From contig SKQM01000167.1 in the NCBI GenBank assembly GCA_007119005.1, positions 1 through 16,899 on the forward strand: 16,899 nt of DNA, read 5' to 3'. A program made the position numbers and the translations under genes. Shown piece by piece: positions 89 through 2,025 of the stretch (its first letter is position 1; each line of letters begins with the position of its first letter). Source of the stretch: Thioalkalivibrio sp. Its GTDB lineage: Bacteria; Pseudomonadota; Gammaproteobacteria; Ectothiorhodospirales; Ectothiorhodospiraceae. A model generated the notes under the pieces. It saw only the letters and a program-made list of their open reading frames with translations, had not been told where the DNA came from and did no database searches.

Positions 89-727
89 ATGCAGGCATTC
101 ACCGTGCACCGGGGCATTGCCGCCCCGCTCGACCGCGCCAACGTAGACACCGACGCGATCATCCCCAAGCAGTACCTGAAGTCCATCAAGCGCACCGGGT
201 TCGGGCCGAATGCCTTTGACGACTGGCGTTATCTGGACCCGGGCCAACCCGACGCGGACAACTCCCGACGGCGCCCGAACCCGGACTTCGTGCTGAACCG
301 CCCCCCGTACGACCGGGCGACCATTCTGCTCGCACGCGAAAACTTCGGCTGCGGCTCGTCGCGGGAACACGCAGTCTGGGCGCTGGACGACTTCGGGTTT
401 CGTGCCGTGATTGCGCCCTCCTTCGCCGACATATTCTTCAATAACAGCTTCAAGAATGGTCTCCTGCCCGTTGTTTTAAAAGAAAGCGAAGTCGATGAGT
501 TGTTCCGCCGCGTGACCGCCGAACCGGGGCTTGAGATCGAAGTGGACCTGCAGTCGCAGCAGGTTCGTGTGCCGGGTGGAGCAGTGTTCGGGTTCGATGT
601 CGACTCCGACCGGCGTCGCCGGCTGCTCGAGGGTCTGGACGACATCGCGCTGACGCTTCAGCATGCGGATAAAATACGGGCATACGAGCAGCGCCGTCGC
701 CAAGAGGCGCCGTGGCTGTTGAATTGA
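89..727 (+). CDS. leuD: 3-isopropylmalate dehydratase small subunit LeuD
   Basis: This 212-residue protein is the swivel-domain subunit that completes the LeuCD isopropylmalate isomerase in the cytoplasm. Visible family marks are the N-terminal [14 protein letters not shown] stretch at residues 18-31 and the hallmark [16 protein letters not shown] at residues 84-99, which contacts substrate and the LeuC active site. Length is normal for the family (about 200-215). The ATG at 89 follows a GGAGG at 76-80 inside the end of leuC, so the start is well supported and translation is probably coupled. Unlike many leuCDB operons, it is followed by a 224-base gap before leuB, occupied by a palindromic element. 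I see no truncation or frameshift. Confidence 0.97.
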
Positions 728-740
728 ACGAGGCTCGAGA

Positions 741-848
741 GCGTCTGGTCTGGATCCCCTTTGGCGGGTGTCGGCAGCAGGGATGCTGCCGTCAAGCCTA
801 CAGGGATGTATTCACGGCGTCCCGCTGAAGGGGATCCAGATCAGACGC
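741..848 (+). repeat. Composite palindromic element with two GGGA-loop hairpins (CsrA-site-like)
   Basis: The outer arms 741-768 and 821-848 are complementary at 25 of 28 positions. Inside them sit two smaller hairpins. The first is GGCAGCAGGGATGCTGCC at 773-790, with a perfect 7-bp stem and GGGA loop. The second is TACAGGGATGTA at 799-810, with a 4-bp stem and the same GGGA loop. Both display CAGGGATG. The second matches 11 of 12 positions of the known CsrA consensus RUACARGGAUGU when the preceding base is included. The motif is present only in the + strand RNA, the sense of leuCDB transcription. From memory it resembles interspersed palindromes seen in several gammaproteobacterial genomes; that and a regulatory role are unproven. 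Confidence 0.8.
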
Positions 849-951: not shown

Positions 952-2025
952 GTGCAAAGGATTCTGGTGTTGCCGGGTGATGGCATCGGCCCGGAGATCG
1001 TCAACGAGGCGCTGAAGGTCCTCGACCGGGTCGCAGAGCTGGAAGGTCTCGAACTCGAGATCGACGAGGGCCTGATCGGCGGTGCCGCGTACGACGCCGC
1101 CGGGCATCCGTATCCCGAGGCCACGCGCGAAATGGCGCGCGAGGCGGACGCGATCCTGCTGGGAGCGGTGGGCGGACCGCAGTACGAGGCGCTGGAGCGC
1201 CCGATGCGCCCGGAGCGCGGGCTGCTCGGGATACGGTCCGATCTCGGGCTGTTCGCGAACCTGCGGCCGGCGATCCTGTACCCGCAGCTCGCGGCCGCAT
1301 CGACGCTGCGGCCTGAAGTGGTGGCAGGGCTCGACCTGCTGATCATCCGCGAGCTCACCGGCGACATCTACTTCGGGGAGCCCCGCGGCATCGAGGTGCG
1401 CGACGGTCAGCGGGTCGGTTTCAACACGGCCGTCTACAGCGAAGCGGAGATCGAGCGCATCGCCCGCGTGGCCTTCGACGCCGCGATGCAGCGGGATCGA
1501 CGGCTGTGCTCGGTCGACAAGGCGAACGTGCTGGAGGTCTCCGAGCTCTGGCGTGAGGTCGTGATCCGGGTCAGCGCCGAATACCCCGAGGTGGAGCTCT
1601 CGCACATGTACGTGGACAACGCGGCGATGCAGTTGGTGCGCGCGCCGAAACAGTTCGACGTGATGGTGACCGGCAATATCTTCGGCGACATTCTTTCGGA
1701 TGAGGCCTCGATGCTCACGGGTTCGATCGGCATGCTGCCGTCGGCGTCGCTGAACGCGGAGAAGGCCGGGCTGTACGAGCCGATCCATGGTTCGGCACCG
1801 GACATTGCCGGGCAGGACAGGGCCAACCCGATTGCCACCGTGCTTTCGGTCGCGATGCTGCTGCGGCACAGCCTCGGTCACGAGGCCGGTGCGCGGCGCA
1901 TCGAGAACGCGGTGGGCCGGGTGCTCGACCAGGGCCTGCGCACCGCCGACATCCATTCCGAGGGCGCGAAGCTGGTGGGCACGATCGCGATGGGTAATGC
2001 GCTGGTTGCAGCGCTTGACGAATAA
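952..2025 (+). CDS. leuB: 3-isopropylmalate dehydrogenase LeuB
   Basis: A 357-residue NAD-dependent decarboxylating dehydrogenase that turns 3-isopropylmalate into 2-ketoisocaproate, the third leucine-specific step. It opens with [14 protein letters not shown] at residues 4-17. The expected catalytic and binding residues are all in place: R95, R105 and R133 for substrate, Y140 and K190 for catalysis, and D222, D246 and D250 for the metal. [20 protein letters not shown] at 241-260 is the family signature. Translation starts at GTG (952), supported by AAAGGAG 8 bases upstream. Length is typical. It follows leuD after a gap with hairpin elements and precedes asd by 27 bases, so it probably shares transcripts with both. 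Confidence 0.97.

Follow-up and report, generated by a model that had tools for sequence, protein, structure and literature searches.

The palindrome between leuD and leuB of this Thioalkalivibrio sp. is a copy of a YPAL-type repeat found across the Gammaproteobacteria. The GGA strand of this repeat, where transcribed, is a candidate docking site for CsrA/RsmA, and the copies together form a possible diffuse sink for this protein, an explanation that we regard as evenly balanced between right and wrong. Comparison between copies establishes the repeat family, its structure, the constraint on its loops and the strand on which the structure is kept. CsrA sponge action of the repeat is a plausible hypothesis. 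What appears to be new here is that both loops of a YPAL-type repeat are kept as the published Rsm/CsrA consensus.

The element spans positions 741–848 of the forward strand of a 16,899-nt stretch of DNA, hereafter the window. It begins 14 bases from the last base of an upstream gene that we take, from gene order, to be leuD (positions 89–727, forward strand, an ORF of 212 aa), and it ends 103 bases before the start of the presumed leuB (952–2025, forward strand, an ORF of 357 aa with a GTG start). A left arm of locus-specific sequence (741–768) pairs with a right arm (821–848) at 25 of 28 positions (89% over 28), both in a self-match and on direct reading, just as the first-pass annotation of this DNA had described. 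The middle of the palindrome between the two arms comprises 52 bases. The conserved repeat core of 58 nt (766–823), delimited by matches in the own genome and by covariance model matches, contains hairpin 1 (769–794; TGTCGGCAGCA GGGA TGCTGCCGTCA) and hairpin 2 (796–818), the latter with a 5-nt bulge, TTCAC, at 811–815. All of these features are given on the forward strand, as is the GGGA loop motif CAGGGATG, of the form CANGGANG, which occurs at 778–785 and 801–808 with the spacing of 23 bases originally noted. The opposite strand gives CATCCCTG, so the GGA loops are confined to the leu-sense RNA of the window, again in line with the initial reading. RUACARGGAUGU is the SELEX consensus of CsrA, and hairpin 2 agrees with it at 11 of 12 positions, as had been counted before.

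The predicted folding energy of the palindrome is −78.2 kcal/mol, against −40.1 ± 3.6 kcal/mol for 200 shuffles (z −10.6). In the minimum-free-energy fold hairpin 1 is formed and the second GGGA is paired with GCGUCCC. A three-way structure that leaves both loops open is predicted at −74.8 kcal/mol, which is 3.4 kcal/mol weaker, and hairpin 2 is present in about 25% of the predicted ensemble. Of the earlier description of two hairpins with GGGA loops, the presence of both motifs therefore stands, but hairpin 2 is absent from the minimum fold, and its support comes from the comparison across copies and not from folding energy. This pairing, in which the second GGGAUGU would be matched to GCGUCCC and loop 2 masked, may be a switch or a mere prediction error.

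The own genome, which is 58.6% complete, holds seven long matches to the core, the window copy included. The six others are 92–100% identical to the core, and one of the seven (L006) has arms that are not paired. At E 0.001, 15 of 40 related genomes, the own genome among them, contain a match. The repeating unit is the 58-nt core, not the arms. Pairing of the arms extends over at least 19 bases outward from the core in 54 of 63 copies, and arm sequences differ between loci (mean identity 0.41 for random arm pairs); the arms of other copies are mostly unlike in sequence yet self-complementary.

The first-pass annotation had suggested that similar palindromes are dispersed in gammaproteobacterial genomes, and this was borne out. 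A covariance model of the element, built from 50 copies, matches 51 of 276 genomes of the class, spread over 47 of 215 genera. In a phylum-wide draw of 199 genomes, for which the class make-up is not given, 18 match and all 18 are Gammaproteobacteria. A 23-base core pattern has at least 120 matching stretches in GTDB genomes; by title, the taxa among the matches listed are Gammaproteobacteria or undetermined proteobacteria, and the genera among them include Methylotuvimicrobium, Sedimenticola, Stenotrophomonas, Pectobacterium, Yersinia, Marinobacter, Ectothiorhodospira and Halorhodospira. Methylotuvimicrobium buryatense 5G has at least 150 element matches, a lower bound because 150 were scored out of 2,022 first-look candidates.

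With the Thioalkalivibrio core as query, the repeat was not found in plasmid and phage sequences. With the Pectobacterium form as query, 16 plasmid records and 5 of 5,426 E. coli genomes match, and 15 enterobacterial plasmid records carry a copy (H6–H20). At L231 and L232, one on a chromosome and one on a plasmid, the copy adjoins genes for alcohol dehydrogenase and threonine ammonia-lyase among insertion-sequence genes; because it is surrounded by insertion-sequence genes in the two places inspected, we read the Pectobacterium-form copy as a passenger. In Methylotuvimicrobium and Methylomicrobium (among L085–L161), copies are embedded in repeated units that have ends in common, of at least two kinds, AGGAACGAGCATGAAATAACTT...AAGTTATTTTGTGCATATTCCT and TATACC..CGCACTT...GGGTATA, and the Methylotuvimicrobium palindrome is therefore able to hitch-hike there. 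A second repeat (around TTTTTGCTCCTGC...CCATCCATGG) is apparently nested in or beside hairpin 1 at L097, L113, L179 and L200, and six matches in a row at a spacing of ~230 bp form a local array at L399 (G461:C1, 622–1847).

The kind of repeat is already known: as judged from the sequences, it is homologous to the YPAL/RU-2 repeat of Yersinia, the original paper on which is reportedly that of De Gregorio in 2006. A 168-nt RU-2/YPAL sequence, reported from Yersinia and Erwinia, is printed in the available part of Delihas 2007 (PMC2759123); it contains the core of our element, with loops CAAGGATG and CATGGATG. In blastn comparisons a 105-nt excerpt of this printed RU-2 sequence aligns with the Yersinia pekkanenii copy L155 at 91.3% over 103 nt, with the Pectobacterium copy L100 at 84.2% over 76 nt and with the window at 79.2% over 53 nt (E 4e-7). 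YPAL is listed for Yersinia pestis in the accessible portion of PMC2267715. The excerpt available of a YPAL review (PMC2229807) gives target duplications of 3 to 26 bp and targets at or near dyad symmetry, and describes the repeat as recently mobile and as expressed together with upstream genes. On these partial accounts, YPAL/RU-2 and the window element share a homologous core, two loops, an intergenic position, an internal inverted repeat and a mobile-looking character, whereas they differ in that YPAL/RU-2 is ~168 bp long with its own conserved outer sequence and the window element is ~108 bp long with locus-specific arms. Because the window palindrome has 108 bp and arms that differ between loci, we regard it as a homologous relative and not as YPAL in the strict sense. 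The available parts of the YPAL/RU-2 accounts (PMC2759123, PMC2229807) do not mention CsrA. In the open-licence PMC literature, YPAL and CsrA were not found together in one paper and nothing relevant by title linked palindromic repeats to CsrA; an Alcanivorax sRNA paper (PMC9788540, in its accessible part) concerns other CsrA sRNAs.

We compared the element with further families of repeats and RNAs. Membership in a MITE family was rejected on the grounds that the arms in the Thioalkalivibrio genus are not common to different loci; MITE-like shared ends occur in the Methylotuvimicrobium units around copies and not in these arms. Sponge sRNAs of the CsrB/RsmZ type carry GGA in hairpin loops and sequester CsrA. 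The element is like them in its GGA hairpin loops, and sequestration is the mode proposed for it, but it has two loops per copy and many dispersed copies instead of one gene. TwoAYGGAY RNA (RF01731), proposed to bind CsrA according to the available parts of PMC4333381 and PMC2864571, resembles the element in having two hairpins with GGA loops. In an Rfam scan up to E 1 the window had no match to this family; all it gave was a microRNA family at E 0.91, a match that we attribute to chance. GTAG REPs with RAYT transposases, as described in the accessible part of PMC3733652, are likewise dispersed palindromes lying mostly downstream of genes, whereas our element is much longer, has another conserved core and lacks the GTAG tag; membership was rejected, with no GTAG present within 741–848. 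The CGTC-REPs, considered because the core ends in GCGTC, were also rejected, as their stem and loop size in the same partial description (PMC3733652) differ from those of the element.

Conservation of the loops was assessed in the genus. Of 103 copies gathered by similarity to the core, 2 belong to another family, and 4 of the remaining 101 had an unsuitable length and were set aside, giving 97 ungapped cores. Loop 1 fits CANGGANG in 96 of these and loop 2 in 90. The fixed letters of the loops depart from the consensus in 0–3.1% of the cores and the N positions in 20.6, 7.2, 19.6 and 28.9%, so that three of the four N positions are the freest sites of the entire core. The other core positions that depart from the consensus in at least 10% of the cores are 11 and 22 (a stem 1 pair), 35 and 44 (a stem 2 pair) and 48 (in the bulge). 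Both motifs are present in 27 of 28 and 26 of 30 model-found copies from other genomes (two sets). Of the 120 matches listed, 91 have the best hairpin upstream of the pattern capped by a loop with GGA, and 112 have GGA anywhere upstream, the latter a loose count. The Rsm consensus, as given in the available part of PMC6849547, is A/UCANGGANGU/A, that is, CANGGANG flanked by A/U. The window element has CANGGANG in a hairpin loop at two sites, as the CsrA/RsmA consensus prescribes, hairpin 2 lying outside the minimum fold. Loops varying freely over conserved stems had been named as evidence against a CsrA role; we found the opposite, with loops that stay while stems change in pairs.

The paired changes are apparent in a 50-copy alignment, A1, which combines 3 genus copies with 47 of the 78 copies that passed a GGA-in-hairpin filter, from the 120 matches listed. 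In A1, 85.6% of cells are paired (61.0% in shuffles), double-change cells number 520 (181 in shuffles), and covariation is 0.599, against at most 0.191 when the alignment is slid. Across the 50 copies, 9 of the 10 pairs of hairpin 1 have changed on both sides, and the outer stem pairs of hairpin 2 vary in pairs in model-found copies. Because hairpin 2 is fixed by the pattern and hairpin 1 is favoured by the filter, A1 bears on the stems and is unable to test loop conservation.

Mismatches in the arms indicate which strand carries the function. If the RNA of the GGA strand is functional, G·U in the arms should be tolerated on that strand and A·C should not, whereas a function of duplex DNA or of both strands predicts equal numbers. 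The GGA strand has 96 G·T mismatches and 24 A·C mismatches in the arms of 77 distinct copies from outside the genus (p 2e-11), with 45 copies richer in G·T, 5 richer in A·C and 27 ties. The filter for this set counts Watson–Crick pairs only, and the set excludes duplicates, five Thioalkalivibrio loci and 29 copies in which such pairs number below 16 of 24. The counts are 66 and 18 without the M. buryatense loci. In 82 genus copies G·T occurs 52 times and A·C 23 times, or 44 and 23 times as distinct events (p 0.014). The model-found sets A2 and A3 give G·T to A·C ratios of 16:1 and 49:13, six A3 rows representing one tandem array, and we do not rest the test on them because the model search favours G·U. 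The few wobbles in the inner stems have no such bias (5:3 and 8:4 in the genus, 3:5 in A1); stem 2 of A1 has 0:14, with loop position N counted as a pair. The G·T excess over A·C in the arms argues that the GGA strand is the functional, folded single strand. This asymmetry is naturally read as that of an RNA, which is favoured over single-stranded DNA. G·T is the milder mismatch in single-stranded DNA too, and RNA is thus favoured, not proved.

The orientation of the core relative to its surroundings is variable. Among neighbour-matched pairs from different genomes, the core is inverted in 4 of 29 pairs with arms at least 80% alike, 16 of 33 at 60–80%, 22 of 28 at 45–60% and 17 of 36 at lower arm identity, although these pairs are not independent and the sites at low arm identity are possibly separate insertions. 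The pair c54/c96 (G016/G006) is a clean case, with flanks 93% and arms 92% alike and the core inverted. We infer from these comparisons that the core inverts between its arms, perhaps via strand switching at the palindrome. The idea that arms are made at insertion is not needed where matching-site arms differ by paired changes (c16/c98, 4 of 23 pairs), but in some close pairs, such as c36/c76, the arms differ too much for easy explanation. No clean empty site was found; a gap at one site in G003 resembles a deletion. Relative to co-directional genes, the GGA strand is sense at 21 and antisense at 13 copies of the genus set according to a first gene caller, and sense at 18 and antisense at 31 of the 120 matches listed, five of which are of the genus; overall, these two sets show no sense bias (39:44). 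By counts derived from a second caller, the 82 genus copies that it covered include 16 with the GGA strand in sense and 14 in antisense, and 16 between convergent and 10 between divergent neighbours.

These patterns bear on what the element does at its position in the window, where it could be a cis-acting CsrA target controlling the translation of leuB, as the first-pass annotation had proposed as one of two options. In the own genome (G000) and in G020 the leuD–leuB gap holds the core in sense orientation, an arrangement compatible with such control. However, 19 of the 26 readable leuD–leuB loci are without the element, and in 5 of the remaining 7 the core is inverted: in G003, G015 and G017 within recognizably similar arms, in G044 within different arms and in G008 as a degenerate copy. 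In addition, 103 bases separate the end of the element from the leuB start. With the element missing or inverted at so many loci, a leuB-specific role is unsupported and unlikely, and we judge cis control of leuB to be highly improbable. Some of the 19 element-free gaps (among L215–L229) hold GTAG-type palindromes or other repeats instead, namely GTAGGAGGCCAGCCCTCTGGCCGAT...ATCGGCCAGAGGGCTGGCCTCCTAC palindromes of the GTAG REP type and long stretches around CGTCATTGCGAGGAGCG. Repeats of several families have landed in the leuD–leuB gap.

Two further explanations assign the structure a different general function. The element could be a 3′-end RNA hairpin that stabilizes or processes adjacent transcripts by its long stem, its loops serving a non-CsrA protein or none. 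Copies often follow soon after stop codons, and convergent neighbours outnumber divergent ones by 23 to 5 in the genus set according to the first caller, but by only 16 to 10 according to the second; a preference for gene ends is likely, not firm. The gene calling is crude, and it places 19 of 103 genus copies and 14 of the 120 matches listed inside doubtful frames. A plain stabilizer needs no fixed loops, however, whereas C, A, GGA and G of the loops are nearly invariant and the arm sequences free, and we consider this explanation unlikely. Somewhat doubtful, though possible, is that the folded strand is DNA, the substrate of a transposase or recombinase that acts in trans and reads both loops and the bulge, in which case the loops would be kept for mobility. 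Such a role would suit a dispersed and mobile-looking repeat whose orientation is indifferent to neighbouring genes and whose Methylotuvimicrobium form lies inside repeated units with shared ends, and YPAL is called recently mobile in the accessible part of its review (PMC2229807). Set against a DNA substrate is that the letters to which the loops are constrained are those of the Rsm/CsrA consensus, and that cores at matching sites are kept better than their flanks, which is more than mobility alone would maintain. Among 82 neighbour-matched pairs with flank identities of 77.5–88.5%, core identity exceeds flank identity in 78 and reaches 90% or more in 61, with the qualification that these pairs are not independent and include pairs within a genome. 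Because copies were gathered by core similarity, decayed copies were not collected and are under-represented in this comparison.

A docking site for CsrA requires CsrA in the host, and the distribution of csrA agrees with this in part. The expected csrA gene is present in most element bearers of the genus and the class, but it was not found in the own genome, which is 58.6% complete. Within the genus, csrA is present in 25 of 30 genomes and 22 of 23 high-quality ones, element-free species included. It occurs in 10 of 14 element bearers and 15 of 16 others; of the four bearers lacking it, three are incomplete (58.6, 67 and 80%) and G003 is 96% complete. At E 0.001 a copy is missing from 12 of the 25 genus genomes, and csrA occurs in 11 of those 12. 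Our confidence in the CsrA docking-site explanation is lowered by this failure of csrA to follow the element within the genus. In the class sample, csrA is found in 49 of 50 element bearers (the own genome excluded; G206 is the one bearer missing from the csrA matches), against 192 of 225 element-free genomes (Fisher p 0.009). This class-level association fits the CsrA reading, although lineage and genome reduction are potential confounders. In four genomes, adjacent CsrA matches come in pairs (G017:C39:851-1195, G021:C60:108819-109193, G002:C3:138133-138507 and G013:C9:127767-128024) that lie in open frames of equal length within each pair (162, 150, 184 and 105 aa, respectively), which suggests double CsrA-domain proteins.

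Under the CsrA docking-site explanation, the element, a copy of the gammaproteobacterial YPAL-type repeat, is a hairpin of roughly 110 bases. RNA read from its GGA strand folds into a long stem capped by a three-way junction with two hairpins, their ANGGAN loops closed by C-G. Wherever this strand is transcribed, as may happen when transcription of an adjacent gene reads through, one CsrA/RsmA dimer could grip both loops, making every transcribed copy a putative docking site. With tens to more than 100 copies per genome, their sum could act as a diffuse CsrA sink, while transcribed copies might locally affect mRNA 3′ ends. A class-wide repeat whose GGA strand carries the twin-loop CsrA/RsmA consensus would account for loops, stems and strand together. 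It leaves over the conserved TTCAC bulge, the GCGT, the indifference to orientation and the occurrence of the core in ever-new arms. The other option raised by the first-pass annotation, a mobile-looking repeat that spreads CsrA/RsmA-type sites, is supported by the class-wide family, the covarying stems, the CANGGANG loops and the wobble asymmetry. A more speculative extension, which we think rather improbable, is that a selfish class-wide repeat acting as a diffuse CsrA sink, together with flipping of the core within its arms, provides phase-variable post-transcriptional control. A core with the GGA strand in sense would switch the CsrA sites of the neighbouring mRNA on and an inverted core would switch them off, with phase variation over evolutionary time or faster.

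As a global regulator, CsrA has a free level that is attributed mainly to dedicated sRNAs. If the repeat acts as proposed, transcript-borne repeats would add a further, genome-specific term to the CsrA balance, and some genomes may contain tens to more than 100 scattered candidate docking sites. Paired CsrA sites would then be present in about one fifth of the sampled gammaproteobacterial genomes (51 of 276), in numbers reaching at least 150 copies per genome, and this old repeat family would acquire a function at the molecular level.
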